A DNA stretch of 34,826 nucleotides from Minisyncoccota bacterium (GTDB lineage Bacteria > Patescibacteriota > Minisyncoccia > Phycocordibacterales > UBA9973). Under the pieces are notes generated by a model. The model was not told the origin of the DNA. It searched no databases and was given only the letters and a program-made list of their open reading frames with translations. Numbering within the stretch: the first letter of the stretch is position 1; every line of letters begins with the position of its first letter. Both the position numbers and the translations under genes were made by a program. The stretch spans positions 1 through 34,826 of the forward strand of contig JAGOTH010000008.1 in the NCBI GenBank assembly GCA_018061865.1, written 5' to 3'. Of the stretch, positions 1 to 8,827 are shown piece after piece.

Positions 1-125
1 TTATTGTCTATGTAAAAACATCGTGGACATTCTTTAAACAAATCAATTTTAGAACGAGAAAGTTTCCAGTTCTTTCCACCGTAATTCCACGATTCCATTC
101 TGTTTGGATTGTAATATTCAGACAT
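1..125 (-). CDS. PD-(D/E)XK (RecB/Cas4-like) nuclease-like protein, N-terminal part only
   Basis: The reading frame starts at an ATG at 125 and runs off the left edge, so only about 41 residues are visible. They include LSRSKIDLFKECPRCFYID. The S-x4-F-x2-CPxxF pattern is the N-terminal motif of RecB/AddB/Cas4-type nucleases, in which the Cys can be part of an iron-sulfur or structural site. The catalytic D-ExK part would lie outside the window. I recall similar proteins as widespread in CPR genomes, where their role is unknown. The start lies 2 bases beyond the stop of the upstream HARE-HTH nuclease gene, so it may be the last visible cistron of the restriction-modification operon, or a core gene that the operon was inserted beside. 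Family assignment is moderate and function is unknown. Confidence 0.55.
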   Translation of the reverse strand, partial: MSEYYNPNRMESWNYGGKNWKLSRSKIDLFKECPRCFYIDN

Positions 126-127
126 AA

Positions 128-865
128 TTATTTAATCAAAGCCCAATTATCCAAAAAATATCCCATTTCGTGATCCATGTTTCCTAGATATACCTTGTCA
201 TTTCTAAACTTTATATTCACACGATACCGTTTGCCATGACCAACTTCCAAAATTGCTTTTTCGTGTACTTTCTTTTCAACTTCGTGAAATGGTAAAATCA
301 AAAAATTGTTTTTCTTCTCGCCGTGCAAAACAAAAATATAATAAATATTTCCATTACTGTGGCGTTCAAATGACACTTTGCGAATATCAAAAACATAAGT
401 GTCAAAACTATTCAAATTCGATGTCTTTACTTGGATTCCAAATAATTGATTATCCTTGACTGCCACAATGTCCATTCCCACGTCTACGCTCATTATGCTG
501 GCGTTGAAACCACGAAAAAGCAGTTCACTACAAACTAAATGTTCTCCTGCTTTGCCGGTAAATCCTCCGGCAATAACGATTTTTTCTTCTTCCTCTTTTT
601 CTGCCTCAATAATTTTAGGCGTTTCTTTTATCTCCTTCTTATTAGCATTAAGAGCAAAGATTCCTGGGGCTGTTTTTATAAAGTCGGAGCCGTCTCCCTT
701 ATTTTTAATATCAACAGTCAGCTGAGCATTCATTGAAGCTTCTGGAGTTGCTCCCTCCGTTTCTAAAATACCAGACTCCAAAGCTAGCCGCGTAATTTCA
801 GTATAGTGCAAGGGAGTTCCTGCCTTTTTTAATATTTCAATTGCTGATTGTTTAAAGGTATTCAT
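128..865 (-). CDS. HARE-HTH domain fused to a PD-(D/E)XK restriction-endonuclease-like domain
   Basis: A 245-residue protein. Residues 1-75 match the HARE-HTH winged helix (AIEILKKAGTPLHYTEIT, then GIF at 68-70), a fold shared with RNA polymerase delta and found fused to restriction endonucleases and DNA-modification proteins. Residues 80-97 form a charged Lys/Glu linker. Residues 100-200 look like a PD-(D/E)XK nuclease: GxxGE with E108, D132 in GMDIVAV, and GIQVKTS with Q145 and K147, the arrangement of Mrr/VSR-like and archaeal-resolvase-like enzymes. It starts 3 bases after the hsdR stop, so it is cotranscribed with the type I system. It may be an accessory restriction nuclease whose winged helix senses modified or distorted DNA; that role is inferred. 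It has no transmembrane segment or signal peptide. Confidence 0.75.
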   Translation of the reverse strand: MNTFKQSAIEILKKAGTPLHYTEITRLALESGILETEGATPEASMNAQLTVDIKNKGDGSDFIKTAPGIFALNANKKEIKETPKIIEAEKEEEEKIVIAGGFTGKAGEHLVCSELLFRGFNASIMSVDVGMDIVAVKDNQLFGIQVKTSNLNSFDTYVFDIRKVSFERHSNGNIYYIFVLHGEKKNNFLILPFHEVEKKVHEKAILEVGHGKRYRVNIKFRNDKVYLGNMDHEMGYFLDNWALIK

Positions 866-868
866 GTT

Positions 869-3829
869 TTATTCCTCTCTTAGAGCCAAGACTTTATCAA
901 CTACGTATCTCAACATTTTCTTTTCGATGTACTCATTTAACTCCTTATTATTTGCTAGTGTCTCATAAAGTTTTTTATCAGAGTCATATTTATCAAAAAC
1001 TTTATTTTCGAATGGTTTATGGAACCAGCGGCCAACCGCTTGCATAGAAGAATTATTATAAACAACATTTTTTGCCTCTTCGTCTCTTATTAATTCTTCC
1101 CCGATAGAATCCAGTGTTTTTTGCTGTTCTTCTCCAAAATCTACACCCCAGCGTTTGTTTACATCACCAATTATTAAAGACAATAAATCCTCTTTTTCCT
1201 CAAAGGGTACTCCGGGAACTATTTCTTCCTGATGGATGTCTCCGGTTTCCGGAGAGAGTGTGATACTTGTGTTAATTTTTCGAACAACTCTCACTGAATC
1301 CATATCCACATACTTTAATATTTCGATTAGAGGTTTCTTGGGATCCTTAGGAAGTTTTTTAAGTAAATATTTAAGTAACAAATATAATTTTTCATGAGAT
1401 ACATCAGAGTAGCCAAGTACCTGAGCAAGATATGGGTAACGTTTAATGTAGACATTTGCAATTGAAAGAAACTCTCCGTATTTGTCATCAGCGATAACAT
1501 CACCTTCACTTCCGTGTGGTAATTCATCAACAATCTGTTTTGCAATTTTATCTAAATACGAATTAGTTTGCTCATGTATTTCTTCTGCATCTGGATCTAT
1601 CAATTTAACGAATCCGTCCAGTAAGTCGTCGTTCAAAGTATAAACAGCAAACAACGCTTGTCTTAAGTCATTAATGGCATTTATGTCAGTACCTTCTGAA
1701 ATAATTGTACTTGTGTAATATGGTGCAAATGCAGTTTTTATATCATCAATTTCATTAACAAAATCTAGAATATAAACTTGTTCTTTATCTCTTGTTGTTC
1801 TATTCAGTCTTGATAGTGTTTGTACAGCTTGAACCCCTGAAAGTCTTTTATCGACATACATTGCACAAAGAAAAGGCTCATCAAAACCAGTTTGATATTT
1901 TTCTGCCACAATAAGAAATCTATACTCAGCTTTTTTGAACTCTTTTGCTGTATTATCCTCTGGAATTCCATTATTTATTGATGTTTCAGTATATGAATTT
2001 CCGTCAATCTCAATCGAGTCAGTAAAAGCGGCAAGGGTCTTATACGGATAATTATTTTTCTGTAAATAAGAATCTAAGACAAGCTTATATCTAACGGCCG
2101 CCTCTCTAGATGAAGTCACAATCATTGCCTTAGATTCACCTCGTAGTAAATCTTTGATAGTTTTTTCAAAATGAGCCATTACAACCTCAATTTTCTGCTC
2201 AAGAGTTGTTTCGTGTAAATTCACATGCCGGAGGATGGCTGAAAGGGCTCTAGAACGTGGAACTGTTGGGTCTTCCTCTGCCTTCTTTAATAATTTAAAG
2301 TAGGTTTTGTAAGTAGTGTAATTTGTCAAAACGTCCAATATAAATTTTTCCTCCGTAGCTTGTTTCATTGAATACAAACTAAACGGCTTAAATGATCCGT
2401 CTAATTGCTTCTCGCCAAACCTCTCAAGAGTTTCGTGTTTTGGAGTAGCGGTAAAAGCAAAATAGCTTATATTTTTTGGTTGCGTTCTACTGTTTGCTTG
2501 TGCAAGCAGCCAATCTTCAATATCTATTGAAAGCGTATCTTGAACAGATCGGGTCAATTCTCCTGACTGTGACGAATGTGCTTCATCAATAACCAAAGCA
2601 AATTTTTTACCAGATAACTCCTTAATTAAACCATCAACAAATGGAAACTTATGAATAGTGGTAGTTATAATTTGAGCATTGCCCAATAGCGCATCTTTAA
2701 GACGAACACCGTCTTCTCCAGCTGGTACAAAAATACCCGGCATAGGCGATAACGCTCTAATAATTTCTCGCAACATTTTATCCAAAACACGTCGATCTGT
2801 TATTACTATTACAGCGTCATAAACTCTTTTGTTTTCTTTATCAAATAAATTAACTAACCTGTGTGCTAGCCAAGCGATTGTTAAGCTTTTTCCACTACCC
2901 GCACTGTGTTGAATGAGATAATTTTTACCTGCGCCACTGATTTCAGAGGCAGAAAGTAAATCTAGTACAGTTCGCCATTGCTGATATCTAGGAAATAACT
3001 GAACCGGTTGTTTATACTCTTTTCCCAAACGATCCTCACGAACTTCTTCGTATGCATGCACAAAATAATGTAATAAATCAGCAATAGAATCTGGTGCCCA
3101 TAAATTTTCCCAAACATAATGTGTTTTATGCTTTCCGTTTACTGGTGGATTTCCGGCTCCCATTTCAAAACCTTTATTAAAAGGTAAAAAGAACGTTCTT
3201 TCCTCCTTTAATTCTGTTGTTACAAAAGCTTCGCTCGTGTCCATAGCAAAATGTGAGACGCAACGCTTAAAAGAGAATATCTTTTCCTGTGGATTTCTAT
3301 CATTTCTATACTGCTTCATCGCGTGATGAACATTTTGACCAGTAAGTTCGTTTTTTAATTCAGCCGTGAAAATAGGGATTCCATTTATGAAAATTACAGT
3401 GTCAATCGACTGTTCAGTTGTTTGTGAAAATTTAACTTGGCGAATAATTGAGAAAATATTGCTCTTATACATTCTTTCAACGTCTTCATTTTCTGAATTT
3501 ACAGGCCTAAAATACATCAAATCAAGCCTAACTGGTCCTTCTTCAATTCCTTTTCTTAGACAATCTATAATTCCTCGTTTCGTTATTTCGTCATCGATTC
3601 TTTTTATTATTCTTGTTTCAAAAGCATCTCCTGATAATTCTCGAATTTTTGTAATTTTTACAGCTTGAGTATTATTAAAAAATTCAAACATTACTTCTTT
3701 ATCAAAAGTAGTTTGCTTATCGTAATCAGTTTCAGAATCTCGTTTTCTAAAACCGTGCATCTTAACAAGCTCTTTCTCAATATGAGCTTCAAATTCTATC
3801 TCTTTTAAATTTTGATGTATATTGGGCAT
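869..3829 (-). CDS. hsdR: Type I restriction endonuclease, HsdR subunit
   Basis: A 986-residue motor and nuclease subunit of a type I restriction enzyme. With HsdM2S it translocates unmodified DNA using ATP and cuts at a distance. The N-terminal nuclease shows D143 (SIDTVIF) and ExK at 157-159 (AELK). The SF2 helicase has Walker A AGSGKS near 310-315, DEAH at 415-418, a TATP motif (FAFTATPKHE) and a motif VI-like stretch (QTLSRLNRTTRD). Length is normal for the family (about 950-1100). All key residues seen are intact, so it should be active. The ATG at 3829 lies 3 bases after the hsdS stop, and the next gene follows after 3 bases, so it is translated within one operon. Confidence 0.95.
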   Translation of the reverse strand: MPNIHQNLKEIEFEAHIEKELVKMHGFRKRDSETDYDKQTTFDKEVMFEFFNNTQAVKITKIRELSGDAFETRIIKRIDDEITKRGIIDCLRKGIEEGPVRLDLMYFRPVNSENEDVERMYKSNIFSIIRQVKFSQTTEQSIDTVIFINGIPIFTAELKNELTGQNVHHAMKQYRNDRNPQEKIFSFKRCVSHFAMDTSEAFVTTELKEERTFFLPFNKGFEMGAGNPPVNGKHKTHYVWENLWAPDSIADLLHYFVHAYEEVREDRLGKEYKQPVQLFPRYQQWRTVLDLLSASEISGAGKNYLIQHSAGSGKSLTIAWLAHRLVNLFDKENKRVYDAVIVITDRRVLDKMLREIIRALSPMPGIFVPAGEDGVRLKDALLGNAQIITTTIHKFPFVDGLIKELSGKKFALVIDEAHSSQSGELTRSVQDTLSIDIEDWLLAQANSRTQPKNISYFAFTATPKHETLERFGEKQLDGSFKPFSLYSMKQATEEKFILDVLTNYTTYKTYFKLLKKAEEDPTVPRSRALSAILRHVNLHETTLEQKIEVVMAHFEKTIKDLLRGESKAMIVTSSREAAVRYKLVLDSYLQKNNYPYKTLAAFTDSIEIDGNSYTETSINNGIPEDNTAKEFKKAEYRFLIVAEKYQTGFDEPFLCAMYVDKRLSGVQAVQTLSRLNRTTRDKEQVYILDFVNEIDDIKTAFAPYYTSTIISEGTDINAINDLRQALFAVYTLNDDLLDGFVKLIDPDAEEIHEQTNSYLDKIAKQIVDELPHGSEGDVIADDKYGEFLSIANVYIKRYPYLAQVLGYSDVSHEKLYLLLKYLLKKLPKDPKKPLIEILKYVDMDSVRVVRKINTSITLSPETGDIHQEEIVPGVPFEEKEDLLSLIIGDVNKRWGVDFGEEQQKTLDSIGEELIRDEEAKNVVYNNSSMQAVGRWFHKPFENKVFDKYDSDKKLYETLANNKELNEYIEKKMLRYVVDKVLALREE

Positions 3830-3832
3830 AAA

Positions 3833-4456
3833 TTAATTTTTCGTGGTGATTGCAGAATATATAATTGAGGATATACACTCTCTAATAATCTCTTTTGGTA
3901 AGATTTTTGCCAAGTCCTCAATCATCGACATTTTTTGTTTTAAAGTATTTGCAATCTTGACTTGTTCTTCATACGGAGGAAAAACAATTGGAAAGTTTAA
4001 AAGAATTCTGTCCTTTAATGTCCACCTATGTTCGGGAGAGACACCTTGTCCAAAAGGAAAAAGTATTTCCTGTAGATAGTGCCATTGAAAATAATAAGTA
4101 TAGAATTCAGAGGAAATTTTCTTATTATTCAACGGCCTTAATGTTGTATAAGCTAAACTAATTACTCCATCATATTTTGAACAATCAACATACCCAGTAA
4201 CTAGATCCATAGGATTAAAAACAAAATCGCCCGGACGCACCCGCGTGTAGTTCTCATACGAACTTGCAATTTGACCTTCGTTGTTTGAAATATCTCTCAA
4301 AACTATTCCTCTTTGAGTTAAAGATAAAACATCTAAAGCTTGGCCTTCATTTTTTTCCTTTGAAATACTAAATAAATGTTTTATACGAACAATATCCCAA
4401 TGCTTTGGCACTTCATCTAACCAAGGTATTTTATTTTTTATTTCCCAGTTAATCAT
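3833..4456 (-). CDS. hsdS: Type I restriction-modification specificity subunit HsdS, half-length (single target-recognition domain)
   Basis: A 207-residue protein with a single HsdS repeat unit: WLDEVPKHWDIVRIKHLF at the start (the usual 'W..(I/V)P..W' entry of a TRD), a TRD of about 150 residues, FPIVFPPYEEQVKIANTLKQKM (the family's conserved P-x-x-EQ-x-x-I linker) and a short coiled coil to the end. Full-size HsdS is about 400 residues with two TRDs, so the second half is missing. The stop is clean and hsdR starts 3 bases later, so this looks like a designed end rather than a frameshift. Half-HsdS proteins can dimerise to read a palindromic bipartite site; whether this one does is inferred. 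Its start overlaps the hsdM stop by 4 bases (ATGA), suggesting translational coupling. Confidence 0.9.
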   Translation of the reverse strand: MINWEIKNKIPWLDEVPKHWDIVRIKHLFSISKEKNEGQALDVLSLTQRGIVLRDISNNEGQIASSYENYTRVRPGDFVFNPMDLVTGYVDCSKYDGVISLAYTTLRPLNNKKISSEFYTYYFQWHYLQEILFPFGQGVSPEHRWTLKDRILLNFPIVFPPYEEQVKIANTLKQKMSMIEDLAKILPKEIIRECISSIIYSAITTKN

Positions 4457-6492
4457 AGTTTTTTTGATAGATCTAATATTTTACCAGCTATAATAGCTAT
4501 GTCTTTTTTAAGATCAGCGGTATCTTTTGGTTTTTTGTATTCAGAAAAATATCTTGGGAAAAGAATTTCATAACCAACTAGCCCAATTTTATTATCAGTA
4601 TCATCTTTTATGCTTTCATCGATCCAAGCATCGTGGAAAAACGGCTTCACTTCTTTTTCAAAGTATTCTTTTACATCAACACTCCACGGGACTTTTTCAT
4701 AGTCTTTTAACTCCTTATCTTCTTCCATATTTCCTCTCTCATCTATGCAAATTTCTGCTTTCTCGTCTCTTTCACCTAGTATTTGCCAAATAGTTTTTAT
4801 GGTTTTTTTACTTGCTTTTAAATTGTTCTTCGTTAACCCTGATTCTAGTTTTTTTAGAAATTCTGCACGAGACATTATTATTTCTCCGCGCATATTTTCT
4901 AGAACTTCGTAAATACACGATCGCAACTCCTGCCATTTTCTGTTCTCCTCATCTCCTTTTTCTCCTCTTTTCTTGCTTGGAACGTCATTCAAAAAGTCTT
5001 TGTGGTTTTTTAAATTTAATAAAGATTCCTCTGTAATTTTAAATTTGAGCTTCAATGGCCTCTGAATAACTATTTCACGAAAACAAAAATCGTGAATTGA
5101 AAATATCTTACTATTTTTGTTATTTTTATTGTCTTTGTATAAATCAAAAATTTTACTTATATCTTCATCGTTAATTTCAAAACGTTTATATCCCAATCTC
5201 TTTTTTAAAAACCTTTTTATATTTTGCGCGTTTATTAATTGTACTTTTCCTTTACGGCCTGAATCTTTCTTATTTGATAATATCCAAATAAAAGTTGGTA
5301 TATCTGTGTTGAAAAAGATGGAATCAGGTAAAGCAATTATAGCGTCAAGTAAATCATTTTCTAAGATAAATCGCCTAATTTTATTTTCTCCACTACCCAC
5401 CTCACCAGTATACATAGGTGAACTATTGAAAATAACTGCGGCCTCACCGCCACCATCTTCCTTTCTTTTTAACTTACTCACAATATGTTGCATGAATAAA
5501 AATTGAGCATCTGAAATCTTTGGTAATCCTGCACCAAATCGTCCAGATAGACCTCTCTCAAATTCATTTTCAACAGCAGTACCATCCTTCTCCCAACTTA
5601 CTCCGAATGGTGGATTTGAAAGTATATAATCAAACCTTTTATCGTGGTGTTGATCGTTGGACAGTGTACTTGCCTTATGGTGTTCTTTGTCTCCTCCTTT
5701 TATATAATCAATGTCTTCACCCTTAAGAAGCATATCCGCTTTACAGATAGCGTAAGTTGAAGAATTTAATTCTTGCCCATATAGAAAGATATTCGCGTTT
5801 TTATTAAAATTAGTTTGAATATAATCCTTACTTACAGTTAGCATTCCTCCTGTTCCGCAAGCTGGATCGTAAATTTCTTTAATTACTCCAGGTTTTGCTA
5901 ATTCTTTTTCTTCGCCTGTAAAAAGTATTGAGGTCATTAAACGAACAACATCTCTCGGAGTATAGTGTTCTCCAGCGGTTTCGTTTGATTGTTCAGCAAA
6001 CCTACGAATCAGATCTTCAAAAGCTAGTCCAATAATATGATTCTCTACCTTATCCGGATGTAGGTCGATTTTATTAAATTCTTTCAAAGCCAAATAAAGT
6101 AATTCTGATTCATGTAATTTGTCTAAAATTCTATCAAATTCAAACTTTGAAAAAATTTCTTTTACATTATCAGAAAATCCATCAATATATTTTCTTAAGT
6201 TTGGTGCTGCTTGAGTTGGAGCCTCAAGAAGCTTTCTAAAAGTATATGGTGAAGTATTGTAAAAATTATAACCAGTTGTCCTATATAAAATATTTAAATT
6301 CGCAACACGACCGTCTAGTTCATTGAAACGTTCAAGGGTTTTTTGTTTTGTTGGCTCAAGAGCATCATCAAGTCTTTTTAAAACTGTTAGAGGAAGAATG
6401 ACATCCTGATACTCATGGGCTTTGAAGGTGCCGTGCAAATGCCCAGCGATATTCCAAATTGTATTTGATATTTCTCTATAATTTGTGGACAT
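4453..6492 (-). CDS. hsdM: Type I restriction-modification N6-adenine methyltransferase HsdM
   Basis: A 679-residue S-adenosylmethionine-dependent adenine methyltransferase of the HsdM family. It has the N-terminal HsdM helical domain (residues 5-140), AdoMet-binding motif I DPACGTGG at 209-216, catalytic motif IV NPPF at 293-296 and a C-terminal region from about 440 onward. That C-terminal region is longer than in classical HsdM (about 500-530 residues) and rich in Lys/Glu, with an N-6 methylase-like end (LVGYEILFPRYF...). It modifies the site chosen by HsdS and protects the host. The ATG at 6492 is 4 bases after the stop of the XRE regulator, and its end overlaps hsdS by 4 bases. Confidence 0.95.
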   Translation of the reverse strand: MSTNYREISNTIWNIAGHLHGTFKAHEYQDVILPLTVLKRLDDALEPTKQKTLERFNELDGRVANLNILYRTTGYNFYNTSPYTFRKLLEAPTQAAPNLRKYIDGFSDNVKEIFSKFEFDRILDKLHESELLYLALKEFNKIDLHPDKVENHIIGLAFEDLIRRFAEQSNETAGEHYTPRDVVRLMTSILFTGEEKELAKPGVIKEIYDPACGTGGMLTVSKDYIQTNFNKNANIFLYGQELNSSTYAICKADMLLKGEDIDYIKGGDKEHHKASTLSNDQHHDKRFDYILSNPPFGVSWEKDGTAVENEFERGLSGRFGAGLPKISDAQFLFMQHIVSKLKRKEDGGGEAAVIFNSSPMYTGEVGSGENKIRRFILENDLLDAIIALPDSIFFNTDIPTFIWILSNKKDSGRKGKVQLINAQNIKRFLKKRLGYKRFEINDEDISKIFDLYKDNKNNKNSKIFSIHDFCFREIVIQRPLKLKFKITEESLLNLKNHKDFLNDVPSKKRGEKGDEENRKWQELRSCIYEVLENMRGEIIMSRAEFLKKLESGLTKNNLKASKKTIKTIWQILGERDEKAEICIDERGNMEEDKELKDYEKVPWSVDVKEYFEKEVKPFFHDAWIDESIKDDTDNKIGLVGYEILFPRYFSEYKKPKDTADLKKDIAIIAGKILDLSKKL

Positions 6493-6496
6493 ATAA

Positions 6497-6700
6497 TTAT
6501 TTCAAAAGTTCGCTACTGGAAATTCCCAAAGCTCCGGCGATCTTTTCCAAAGTCGAAAGAGTAGGATTCATACGACCATTTTCAATGTTGCTGATATATG
6601 CTCTATCAACACTCAAAGCGTTCGCAAGGTCTACTTGCGACATGTTTTTTTTCAAACGCCATTTTCTTAGGTTTTCCCCAAGTTTCTTTCCGGATGACAT
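6497..6700 (-). CDS. XRE-family helix-turn-helix regulator (controller of the RM operon)
   Basis: A 67-residue single-domain DNA-binding protein of the Cro/C1 type. It has the HTH pattern MSQVDLANALSVDRAYISNIENGRMNPTL broken as helix (MSQVDLANALS), turn and recognition helix (RAYISNIENG). I use the ATG at 6700; an upstream in-frame TTG at 6718 would add six residues but lies inside the promoter. The gene heads the operon and sits 4 bases before hsdM, as C-protein regulators of RM systems do. A palindrome overlapping the promoter -35 suggests that it controls its own transcription and that of hsdMSR, delaying restriction after entry into a new host. The autoregulation is inferred from position. 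Confidence 0.88.
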   Translation of the reverse strand: MSSGKKLGENLRKWRLKKNMSQVDLANALSVDRAYISNIENGRMNPTLSTLEKIAGALGISSSELLK

Positions 6701-6706
6701 AAATAA

Positions 6707-6735
6707 AGTATATTCCAAGTTGCATCACATTACAA
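6707..6735 (-). promoter_or_regulatory. Promoter of the XRE-hsdMSR operon
   Basis: On the minus strand, -35 TTGTAA (6730-6735), a 17-base spacer and -10 TATACT (6707-6712). The -10 ends 6 bases before the ATG at 6700, so transcription would start at or next to the start codon and give a leaderless mRNA. There is no Shine-Dalgarno sequence. Confidence 0.6.
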
Positions 6736-6743
6736 CGTGTAAT
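6729..6743. promoter_or_regulatory. Candidate operator of the XRE regulator
   Basis: Inverted repeat ATTACA-acg-TGTAAT with perfect 6-base arms. It covers the -35 element of the XRE promoter, the usual place for a repressor or controller-protein site. The regulator that binds it is inferred, not shown. Confidence 0.5.
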
Positions 6744-6797
6744 ATAATTCACATGGGTGATGTCCGCCCCGAATTTCGCCAAAAGAAAACGGATGGA

Positions 6798-6840
6798 GCA
6801 AGCGGAGGATTCCTCCCCAGACCCCTCCTCCTCCGCTTGC
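6798..6840. repeat. Inverted repeat, 12-bp perfect arms
   Basis: Arms GCAAGCGGAGGA (6798-6809) and TCCTCCGCTTGC (6829-6840) around a 19-base C-rich loop. It is GC-rich within an AT-rich genome and has no T-run, so it is unlikely to be a simple terminator. Confidence 0.75.
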
Positions 6841-6859
6841 GAAATCCGAAATTAGCCGA

Positions 6860-6904
6860 GGTTTTGCGGAAACCATATTCCCAGAAAATTGCTTCCGCAA
6901 AACC
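6860..6904. repeat. Inverted repeat, 12-bp perfect arms
   Basis: Arms GGTTTTGCGGAA (6860-6871) and TTCCGCAAAACC (6893-6904). It lies 20 bases from the preceding inverted repeat. Paired inverted repeats of this kind next to a recombinase may be protein-binding arms or remnants of palindromic elements. Confidence 0.7.
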
Positions 6905-6969
6905 GAGTCCTTTTGTTAGTCCGCATCAGGATTTTGTTCGTAATAGGTTCGGACTTTGTTAATGACACA

Positions 6970-7093
6970 CCACCCGATTGAATTTCCCCGCGAAAATGCG
7001 TCCGCGCTCCGCGCGGTAAGTGGAAGTTCGGCAAGAAAAGAAAAGGGCGTTTTGAAATCCACGGAGAGCGCGCTTGCGCGCAAATGGCGGTTC
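6970..7093 (+). repeat. Left copy of 124-bp inverted repeat flanking the recombinase
   Basis: The reverse complement of this stretch matches 8591-8714 at 122 of 124 positions; the two differences lie at the CCCGTTACC/CCACTTACC site. It starts with CCACCCGATTG, which in the right copy abuts the tRNA-Ala 3' end. Read in the recombinase frame it keeps the same codons with one Val-to-Leu change, so it looks like a copy of the 3' end of a recombinase gene in opposite orientation. Just beyond, the resemblance continues for GGCTC after a 3-base gap that carries an in-frame TAG. Confidence 0.92.
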
Positions 7094-7211: not shown

Positions 7212-8738
7212 ATGATTAAATATTTTATATATTGTAGAAAATCAAGTGAGGATGAAGAACGCCAAGTTTTGAGTATTGAGGCGCAACTTCATGAGCTTCG
7301 GGAATACGCCAAGCAAAATGGGTTATTTGTTGTTCGTGAGTATTATGAAAGTAAAACGGCGAAAGAGCCTGGTCGTGAAGTATTTAATGAAATGCTTGGC
7401 GAAATTGAAAAAGGTTTTGCATCGGGAATTTTAGCGTGGAATCCAGACCGTTTAGCGAGAAATAGTATTGATGGTGGCAAGGTCATATATTTTGTGGACA
7501 CATTAAAAATTGTTGCGCTAAAATTCCCGACATTTTGGTTCGAAGCGACACCCCAAGGAAAATTTATGTTGAGTGTCGCTTTCGGACAAGCAAAATATTA
7601 CACCGACAATTTAAGAGAAAACATTTTGCGTGGAATACGGCAAAAGATACGCCGTGGTGAATTATCGGCAAAAGCTCCAATCGGTTATTTTAACGAACCG
7701 AGACTTCGCACGATTGAACCTGACAAAAAGACATTTCGTAAAATAAAAGAAGTATTGGAGCTTTTTAGTACAGGCGAATATACACTCACGGCTATTCAAT
7801 GCAAAATGTTTTCTCTTGGCTTGGTTGGCGCACGATCTGGCAAACCTTTCGCACTCGCCTCGGTAGAACATATTTTGAAAAATCCTTTTTACTATGGATA
7901 TTTTTCTTACCGAGGCGAAGTGCATCAAGGTTCGCATAAGCCAATGATTTCAAAGAAAACTTTTGACAAGATACAGGAAGCACTTGTCGCAAATGGAAAA
8001 CCCCGCAAAAATCAAAAGAAAAAGAATTTTCAGTTTCTAAATTTTGCTACTTGTGGGGAATGTGGCTATGCGATAACTGCTGAACGACATATCAAGAAAA
8101 GCGGTCTGCAGTTTATTTATTATCGTTGCACCCACAAGAGCAAAATTACTAAATGTTCTGAAAATAAATTTTTGCGGGAAGAAGAATTTGAACGACAAGT
8201 GCAGGAACTTTGTCAAAAGGTTTCTTTACCCGATGAATGGCGGGATAAGTATCTCGGTAAGCTCGCCGAGTGGGAACAAGAGAACCGCCAATCATCGGGA
8301 GTTTTCGCTCAAAATCTGCGTGTTTCTATTTCTGACATCAAAGCAAAGATTGACCGCCTTATGGACGGCTATCTCGACGGAGGTTTTGAGTTGTCGGAAT
8401 TTCAACAGAAAAAGAATGTTTTGATGTCTGAAAAGAAAACGCTTGAGGAAAAATTATCTGATTTTGAGCGAAAAGGAAATCATTGGCTCGAACTCGTGCG
8501 AAACTGGATTTTACAAGCCAACCAAGCACAAAATCTCGCTTCTTCAAAAAAGTTTGAGGAAATGAAAACTTTTTTGAAAACCATCGGCTCGAACCGCCAT
8601 TTGCGCGCAAGCGCGCTCTCCGTGGATTTCAAAACGCCCTTTTCTTTTCTTGCCGAACTTCCCGTTACCGCGCGGAGCGCGGACGCATTTTCGCGGGGAA
8701 ATTCAATCGGGTGGACCCTAGGAGATTCGAACTCCTGA
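7212..8738 (+). CDS. Large serine recombinase (site-specific integrase)
   Basis: A 508-residue recombinase. The N-terminal resolvase domain (1-140) has YCRKS with the likely nucleophile S11, SIEAQ at 21-25, and WNPDRLARN with R80 and R83. A 'Recombinase' domain follows (150-260), then a zinc ribbon with C281, C284, C306 and C315, a coiled-coil region (365-425) and a C-terminal tail. It cuts and rejoins DNA at attachment sites to integrate, excise or invert a segment. Residues 461-501 are encoded in the right 124-bp inverted repeat, and residues 501-508 (WTLGDSNS) with the TGA stop are encoded by the opposite strand of tRNA-Ala. The protein end is therefore set by the integration target. The ATG at 7212 has no evident Shine-Dalgarno sequence. 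All catalytic residues are intact. Confidence 0.92.
   Translation: MIKYFIYCRKSSEDEERQVLSIEAQLHELREYAKQNGLFVVREYYESKTAKEPGREVFNEMLGEIEKGFASGILAWNPDRLARNSIDGGKVIYFVDTLKIVALKFPTFWFEATPQGKFMLSVAFGQAKYYTDNLRENILRGIRQKIRRGELSAKAPIGYFNEPRLRTIEPDKKTFRKIKEVLELFSTGEYTLTAIQCKMFSLGLVGARSGKPFALASVEHILKNPFYYGYFSYRGEVHQGSHKPMISKKTFDKIQEALVANGKPRKNQKKKNFQFLNFATCGECGYAITAERHIKKSGLQFIYYRCTHKSKITKCSENKFLREEEFERQVQELCQKVSLPDEWRDKYLGKLAEWEQENRQSSGVFAQNLRVSISDIKAKIDRLMDGYLDGGFELSEFQQKKNVLMSEKKTLEEKLSDFERKGNHWLELVRNWILQANQAQNLASSKKFEEMKTFLKTIGSNRHLRASALSVDFKTPFSFLAELPVTARSADAFSRGNSIGWTLGDSNS
8591..8714 (-). repeat. Right copy of 124-bp inverted repeat
   Basis: Inverted match to 6970-7093 (122/124). It covers recombinase codons 461-501 and stops at position 8714, three bases inside the tRNA-Ala 3' end. 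It contains smaller GC-rich palindromes such as CCGCGC-gga-GCGCGG. The 1.5 kb between the copies contains the rest of the recombinase gene and its upstream region. Confidence 0.92.
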
Positions 8739-8784
8739 CCTCCTCATTGCAAATGAGGCGCTCTACCAACTAAGCTAAGGGCCC
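8712..8784 (-). tRNA. tRNA-Ala (anticodon UGC)
   Basis: On the minus strand it folds as a full cloverleaf: acceptor GGGCCCT/AGGGTCC (with one G-U pair), D-arm GCTTAGTTGGTAGAGC, anticodon stem CCTCA/TGAGG with loop TTTGCAA (anticodon TGC) and T-arm with GTTCGAAT. The discriminator is A and CCA is not encoded. The 3' half overlaps the last 27 bases of the recombinase gene on the other strand, as expected when an integrating element uses this tRNA as its attachment site. Confidence 0.95.
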
Positions 8785-8827
8785 AATATTTAAACTTTAA
8801 AACAAGGGCAAAAGCCCAAGTTCCTCT

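Follow-up and report, generated by a model that had tools for sequence, protein, structure and literature searches.

The staphylococcal and enterococcal cassette chromosomes have a large serine recombinase, insert at the 3′ end of a conserved gene through a short core, and can include restriction-modification (RM) genes in their cargo. Here, we describe an element at the start of a contig from a Minisyncoccota (Patescibacteriota) genome. The stretch analyzed, hereafter the window, is positions 1 to 34,826 (34,826 nucleotides) of JAGOTH010000008.1 in assembly GCA_018061865.1 (614 kb, 18 contigs), and forms the start of the contig that we call contig C5. It holds a large serine recombinase gene, a tRNA-Ala gene, and part of an operon that continues onto contig C6, for which coordinates are given as locus L003. 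We consider it probable (roughly 0.7) that this operon, a seven-gene predicted anti-phage unit made of a type I RM system with a half-size HsdS and of HARE, Cas4-like, and Shedu nucleases, is cargo in the slot of a tRNA-targeted large-serine-recombinase element. It departs from the cassette chromosomes in using tRNA genes as targets, in having two pairs of long inverted repeats that abut each other, and in an attP-like site that lies within it in inverted orientation.

According to two reports, nucleases that combine HARE-HTH with a restriction endonuclease (REase) domain are accessories encoded downstream of Dnd genes and also serve BREX as backup effectors, the proposed function being to discriminate or to act as a backup, and both HARE-REase and Shedu proteins have already been published as accessories of modification systems (PMC10853773, PMC12839542). 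The HARE nuclease studied here is like these in the fusion of HARE-HTH to PD-(D/E)XK and in its place at the end of a modification operon, but differs in standing behind ordinary RM systems of several types, in being swapped at 91–96% identity, and in being cargo in three elements. The complete type I RM system on a genomic island of Patescibacteria nzgw456 offers a parallel both in its island setting and in the Paceibacteria class, whereas the words "recombinase," "integrase," and "inverted repeat" do not occur in the available part of its description (PMC12455944). The same part relates the hypothesis that bacteria with very small genomes lack most classical defences (PMC12455944). No description of a two-module element of the present kind was found among the titles and abstract beginnings of open papers (preprints not included), and one may be published elsewhere.

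Results

The element consists of two modules with a common core at the centre, the recombinase lying between 124-nt repeats (B) and the cargo between 225-nt repeats (A). The recombinase (7212–8738, + strand; Pfam Resolvase, Recombinase, and Zn_ribbon_recom) runs into the outer arm B (8591–8714, delimited by inverted-repeat comparison), an attL-like arm that ends in the 3′ end of the tRNA-Ala (TGC) gene (8709–8785, − strand; ARAGORN), the integration target; relatives likewise have a tRNA 3′ end where the repeat ends. The inner arm B′ (6970–7093) is an inverted copy of the recombinase 3′ end and is 98.4% identical to the outer arm over 124 nt. On the cargo side, the inner arm A′ (6761–6985) and its partner on contig C6 (L003:12858–13081) flank the operon and are 99.6% identical over 225 nt, with one 1-nt indel. 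The same 16-nt core stands at three places: at the outer B end within the tRNA-Ala 3′ end (8699–8714), at the centre (6970–6985), and at the outer A end, against the chromosome (L003:12858–12873). The two outer cores have the direct orientation that an integrase requires, whereas the central core is inverted with respect to both and carries both arms; judged by its sequence, this A-core-B junction is the one expected on an excised circle. The Resolvase and Recombinase domains, the direct outer cores, and a conserved gene end as target are those of a large-serine-recombinase element, but attP, which is consumed on integration in such elements, here still has its counterpart inside the integrated copy. 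Integron cassettes use a tyrosine recombinase, and the enzyme here is a serine recombinase by Pfam. A further recombinase of this kind, with inverted repeats of 158 nt, lies on contig C9 of the same genome (L245:10758–12639), where the end of the contig cuts off the upstream side.

The joint between the two contigs falls in the sixth gene of the operon. The last 127 bases of contig C6 are identical to window positions 1–127 (an exact end overlap), so that gene six crosses from one contig to the other; the window holds only about 41 of its codons (1–125, − strand), the remainder being on contig C6 (whole gene L003:14840–15589). The joined protein of 249 aa aligns with homologues over its full length, across the joint (90% in L066 and 93% in L098), which supports the C6–C5 connection.

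Relatives of the recombinase are present in 193 of 383 genomes of the class (E≤1e-40, own genome included). Forty recombinase places were picked by hand among the matches listed, avoiding those visibly at contig starts, and the recombinase repeat was found in 36 of them (all except L191, L194, L209, and L214). The cargo repeat was found in 28 of the 40; in 11 of the 12 remaining places, the contig extends less than 2 kb upstream, leaving 28 of 29 testable places with the repeat (the miss being L191) under a 2-kb limit that was chosen after the data had been seen. In 24 of the 28 places with a cargo repeat, this repeat meets a recombinase repeat within 40 nt. The same test applied to 165 control open reading frames (ORFs) gave none with repeats. 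Over 30 elements with meeting repeats (own included), the medians are 123 nt at 99.2% identity and 176 nt at 99.3%, and the overlap common to both repeats has a mode of 4 nt and lies mostly at a tRNA 3′ end; these medians, like the 34-element counts given below, mix the picked places with loci L166–L185, which were selected by a match to our cargo end and are therefore biased towards the two-repeat plan. The tRNA ends 2–9 nt inside the outer end of the recombinase module in 27 of the 40 places (L191, having no repeat there, was measured at the gene end), while the other 13 have a tRNA within 50 nt (five places), farther off (three), or none (five). For 44 recombinase ORFs, the 900 nt lying 5′ of the gene contained no tRNA. 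Across 27 elements, own included, a consensus motif adjoins the core on its A side. Two whole elements stand next to each other in L202:2955–14930, each at its own tRNA (Ala and Ser).

The plan is also present around a 65% identical recombinase from outside the class (L244). With recombinases below 36% identity, a search reaching 900 nt found repeats in none of 12 rows, which include two records entered twice and one gene truncated by a contig edge. Beyond that distance, a 35% identical recombinase (L175:2568–10075) has 224-nt inverted repeats at 97.8% identity together with the RNA region described below, and because of this the two-repeat plan, as far as these sequences indicate, may not stop at 36%. 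In viral contigs, the recombinase gave two partial matches, both near contig ends.

Because repeats of this kind could also be products of assembly or binning, it is relevant that many contigs end at or near the repeats by the recombinase, that 11 of the 40 places have under 2 kb of upstream contig, and that some of L166–L185 end inside a repeat. We nevertheless hold an artefactual origin to be extremely improbable: the plan is carried by two single-contig genomes, G602 (L190) and G631 (L171), the arms differ from one another by substitutions or an indel, none of the 165 control ORFs has such repeats, and the break in our own assembly falls in gene six, outside the repeats.

The contents of the cargo module vary widely. 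In the 34 other elements with a cargo repeat, the cargo spans 0.9–10.6 kb, and since many elements contain no more than a single gene in about 1 kb, defence is not the only type of cargo. RM-like genes were nevertheless enriched, accounting for 14 of 75 proteins of at least 200 aa in cargo vs 4 of 214 outside (Fisher p 2.9e-6). This was a script count in which a gene was called RM-like by a BLAST match to our own Hsd proteins or by the motif [NDS]PP[YFW] in a protein of at least 200 aa, a crude test that detects only adenine/amino-type methylases and is blind to C5-cytosine methylases. PADLOC and Pfam tallies, which list families rather than proteins, covered 98 cargo proteins (both tools) and 97 outside (PADLOC only; one of 98 was dropped, being also cargo of a tandem element). 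RM-like cargo occurs in 11 of the 34 elements and an XRE-like ORF in 16; the coding direction of the cargo is away from the recombinase in 31, towards it in one (L224), and undecided in two.

Comparison of single loci points to exchange of the genes within this frame. L173 has a recombinase 96.6% identical to ours and wholly different cargo genes, while L103 has in common with ours the cargo end (88% over 646 nt) and carries a different RM operon with a HARE gene. In L169 and L172, the XRE gene is common with ours (86–90%) and is followed by other genes. The cargo of L203, L204, and L197 holds HARE (89%, 94%) and Cas4-like (91%) genes, and the HARE nuclease is cargo in three elements in all (own, L203, and L204). 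At L183:5807–11820, two repeat-bounded cargo-like modules lie beside one recombinase, which suggests stacking of modules.

All genes of the operon are on the − strand, in the order XRE, hsdM, half-size hsdS, hsdR, HARE-HTH/PD-(D/Q)XK nuclease, Cas4-like nuclease, and SduA. An earlier note on this DNA, made from the window, had described a tightly spaced six-gene operon, and the six genes it named are indeed present, with gaps of 4, −4, 3, 3, and 2 nt; the unit actually has seven genes, gene six runs onto contig C6, and the 225-nt inverted repeats bound the whole. The seventh gene, encoding SduA (401 aa; L003:13633–14838, outside the window), starts 1 nt after gene six. The first cargo gene encodes an XRE-family regulator (6497–6718; Pfam HTH_3 1.6e-18, PADLOC control-protein model 2.5e-17). 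Between it and the A′ arm is a near-palindrome, TTACAACGTGTAA (6730–6742), which from its sequence is a possible operator.

The RM core is of type I, with HsdM, HsdS, and HsdR within one operon. HsdM (4453–6492), an N6-adenine methyltransferase with the motifs DPACGTG and NPPF, matches Pfam N6_Mtase (3.1e-67) and HsdM_N (1.4e-22) and, nearly full length, PADLOC MTase_I PDLC03029 (4.8e-239). HsdR (869–3829), the restriction and translocase subunit, has the HSDR_N, SWI2_SNF2, ResIII, and T1R_D3-like domains of Pfam and the motifs GSGKS and DEAH. The system is thus like other HsdMSR systems in its HsdM with HsdM_N, its HsdR with HSDR_N and a SWI2/SNF2 motor, its HsdS family domain, and its single operon, but differs from them in a one-domain HsdS and in three additional nuclease genes within the same operon. 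HsdS (3833–4456; Pfam Methylase_S 9e-8) has 207 aa and a single Methylase_S domain, hence one target-recognition domain in place of the two of type I systems, vs 391–446 aa in seven HsdS-like proteins of relatives. A search of our genome at E≤0.1 gave no second match to HsdS. NgoAV is a precedent for HsdS function supplied by a dimer; a complex of HsdM and two half-HsdS subunits would modify a bipartite, palindromic site, with unmethylated DNA left for HsdR to cut. Phase variation, or an invertible promoter of the operon, was considered as the principal account of the locus and rejected, as the orientation of recombinase and cargo is nearly fixed and the genome search gave no second hsdS piece.

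Gene five (128–865) has an N-terminal HARE-HTH domain (Pfam 8.5e-18) and a weak match to PDDEXK_5 at 4e-4, below the cut-off of that family. Five residues, E108, D128, D132, Q145, and K147, are invariant across 35 aligned HARE nuclease sequences. A predicted model (mean predicted local distance difference test score [pLDDT] 83; predicted template-modelling score [pTM] 0.57) gave Foldseek matches to the Holliday-junction resolvase Hjc (E 2.2e-4, template-modelling [TM] score by target 0.51) and the homing nuclease I-Ssp6803I (E 2.8e-4, TM-score by target 0.64), and a sequence-profile search gave Hjc alone, at E 0.86. In the predicted model, gene five has both the core fold and the catalytic residues of a PD-(D/E)XK nuclease of the Hjc/I-Ssp6803I kind.

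The HARE nuclease gene is present in 15 of 379 sampled genomes of the phylum (E≤1e-5, own included). A pattern-based scan of 84,980 species' genomes gave 132 matching stretches, from which 46 loci with relatives were taken. For 28 of these, each flank is 6 kb or longer, and the distance from the HARE gene to an RM-like gene is at most 3 kb in 15, 6 kb in 21, and 9 kb in 22, compared with none of 29 control ORFs of 200–300 aa (outside elements, from other genomes) in a control run at 3 kb. The HARE gene overlaps the gene upstream, or follows it by at most 14 nt, in 23 of the 42 loci with a value. Seven loci have no counted RM-like gene within 6 kb (L093, L094, L095, L108, L126, L128, and L129), although in L094, L095, and L128 the count skipped a methylase-motif ORF because it shares a few bases with the HARE gene. 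Among the gene neighbourhoods listed, matches to hsdM and hsdR occur together beside the HARE gene in L086, L088, L089, L091, L116, and L123. In L094, L095, L100, L103, and L118, the neighbours are other methylase-motif ORFs, and the HARE gene also follows single large methylases and Dam-like methylase operons. This is the co-occurrence survey that the earlier note had called for, and with 21 of 28 loci RM-linked, gene five is not mostly away from RM genes. The proposal that it is an in-operon partner of a type I system therefore survives as regards RM but not as regards type I, the RM types concerned being unrelated.

The HARE copies in L086–L089 are 96, 96, 91, and 92% identical to ours, yet the RM genes that they follow are only 21–51% identical to our own, and in L086–L088 the DNA similarity ends at the borders of the HARE gene (L089 also has weak hsdR and hsdM patches). 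Because near-identical copies follow such different RM genes and the DNA match stops at the gene itself, we conclude from these sequences that the HARE gene moves between unrelated RM systems.

Gene six encodes a Cas4-like PD-(D/E)XK nuclease with paired cysteines at 33/36 and 235/238 (PDDEXK_1 7e-14; PADLOC Cas4 profile 2e-8). It was found in 129 of the 379 sampled phylum genomes, own included. Among its closest testable loci, an RM-like gene is found within 6 kb at 7 of 16 and within 3 kb at 3 of 16, in a sample made up of 20 of the closest loci plus L027 (G175) and L033 (G324), both of which stand beside RM genes and without which the figure at 6 kb is 5 of 14. As regards the earlier note's suggestion that gene six could be core, the gene is widespread and in these loci often lacks an RM neighbour, though at 6 kb only narrowly so (9 of 16 without one, against 7 RM-linked). 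SduA matches PADLOC SduA PDLC00391 (3e-116) over its full length, has the DUF4263/SduA_C nuclease domain that marks Shedu, and matches the solved Shedu structure 8ti8 in sequence at 8e-16; in contrast to Shedu, which stands alone, it is here the terminal gene of an RM operon. SduA-like genes are present in 4 of the 379 genomes, own included.

These distributions bear on whether the seven genes work as a single composite machine, with the type I complex required for the action of the HARE, Cas4-like, and Shedu nucleases. The tight spacing (−4 to 4 nt) and the place of HARE genes directly behind RM genes in many relatives speak for such a machine, but we judge it unlikely, as HARE copies of 91–96% identity stand behind RM genes of 21–51% identity with DNA similarity confined to the HARE gene in L086–L088, the distributions of the SduA-like genes and of gene six (4 vs 129 of 379 genomes) do not match, and none of the 46 HARE loci has both a Cas4-like and an SduA match. 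Of the composite defence system proposed in the earlier note, the nuclease genes within an RM operon remain, while parts without matching distributions are better described as a defence cassette of exchangeable parts.

Behind SduA, at or near the distal end of the cargo, is a conserved region of about 500 nt (L003:13083–13605) that occurs in 14 distinct loci (including L103:5452–5963 and L173:14682–15187), with partial matches in a few more; the cargo-bounding repeat is visible beside it in some of these loci but not all. The alignment has 48 predicted pairs, 18 of them with changes on both sides, and a 20-bp long-range stem. Pairing holds in 93.5% of alignment cells vs 36–49% when the partners are slid by 1–3 columns. 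None of 500 shuffles reached the covariation score, and 159 of 500 reached the count of further pair types, with the caveat that related sequences can beat shuffles without any structure. An Rfam search with our own region gave no match at E≤1 (four weak matches lie outside the region), and searches with three relatives' loci gave none at the gathering score. We thus predict a conserved structured RNA without a known Rfam family.

Discussion

The probability that we give to a defence cargo in a recombinase element rests on the genes, their borders, the repeats, the three core sites, and recurrence with other cargo, all read from sequence. In such an element, the recombinase would integrate an excised circle by joining its attP to a tRNA gene at the 3′ end. 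The frame (recombinase, B and A arms, often the XRE gene, and sometimes the structured RNA) would be kept while the genes between are exchanged, probably through recombination in the shared arms. As the cores at the two cargo ends are in opposite orientation, a recombination event between these ends can flip the cargo but cannot remove it.

Several observations weigh against this account. No clean empty site was found: the protein of the left neighbour had no match (E≤1e-30) in 10 genomes of the same family, and in a uvrC-based synteny comparison the tRNA-Ala of G306 is empty with a different gene behind it. The two-repeat plan is absent in L191, around the second recombinase of L216 (45%), and around the truncated recombinase of L105 (47%); L209 and L214 lack the recombinase repeat, the repeats in L198 and L210 do not meet, and the cargo arms of L173 are of differing types and only 84% alike. 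In addition, if both attP copies worked on the circle, recombinases pointing either way would be expected, but tRNAs are seen only on the 3′ side, and cargo facing away from the recombinase in 31 of 32 oriented elements runs counter to free use of both copies. Because these orientations are fixed, the central copy, as the sequences stand, may not serve integration.

A retained inverted attP is odd for a serine integrase, and the reasons for keeping it could be divergent promoter control, cassette exchange, or single-strand folding. Control of divergent promoters by a recombinase has a precedent in Tn3 resolvase at res. If the central copy were mainly an operator, bound by the recombinase between the promoters of recombinase and cargo and controlling both, the divergence of the two in 31 of 32 elements and the consensus motif beside the core on the A side in 27 elements would follow; we think this somewhat unlikely as the main function, for it leaves repeats of up to 393 nt, and their near identity, unexplained. 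Folded single-strand recombination sites are known from CTX-phage and integrons, and uptake of one strand could in the same way allow B to pair with B′ and A with A′, the stems stacking and a double-stranded attP being rebuilt at the core. Such folding would account for inverted repeats bounding both modules and for arms that are nearly identical (medians 99.2% and 99.3%) and meet at a common core with a mode of 4 nt. We find it quite improbable, since a serine recombinase cutting both strands of a folded site would give hairpin-capped chromosome ends, and no single-stranded stage has been seen.

More broadly, we suggest, tentatively and at somewhat less than even odds, that an element of tRNA seat, recombinase, and cargo represents an undescribed family of Patescibacteria mobile elements, in which recombinase and cargo each lie in their own long inverted repeats with an inverted attP between them, partly with a structured RNA at the cargo end. 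It would be a natural platform for cassette exchange, where operons for defence or other functions replace one another beside a constant recombinase and tRNA seat, and the RM system that happens to fill the slot gains HARE, Cas4-like, and Shedu nucleases. A standard slot with interchangeable defence operons, if real, would help explain patchy defence content, the presence of the same accessory nuclease behind unrelated RM systems, and assembly breaks beside the recombinase, and its anatomy hints at how reduced genomes swap defences. The elements also offer pairs of recombinases and attachment sites with natural inverted sites, as well as a conserved structured RNA of no known family.

As for gene five, the HARE nuclease would act as a second line behind the type I RM system, and the second cut mode against modified DNA that had been proposed for it is plausible for the predicted nuclease. 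We infer that N6-methyladenine (m6A) in general is not its trigger: the partner methylases detected belong to the adenine/amino type, to which the RM-like test is limited, and a nuclease set off by m6A would attack the DNA of its host. From the sequence comparisons, the likelier triggers are phage DNA that is hypermodified or ends produced by the RM enzyme. A motif test for C5-cytosine methylases on the 46 HARE loci found none. Two points tell against this view of the trigger: an ORF near the HARE gene in L115 begins, by eye, like a C5-cytosine methylase, and the ligand of HARE is disputed between adenine and cytosine modification (PMC11037411). Relatives of the nuclease at 52–55% identity, with methylase-motif genes adjoining, occur in contigs labelled Micrarchaeota and Woesearchaeota (L120, L117, and L119), and at L128:10001–12301 a HARE-HTH domain is joined to a much longer protein (766 aa), directly after a methylase-motif gene.

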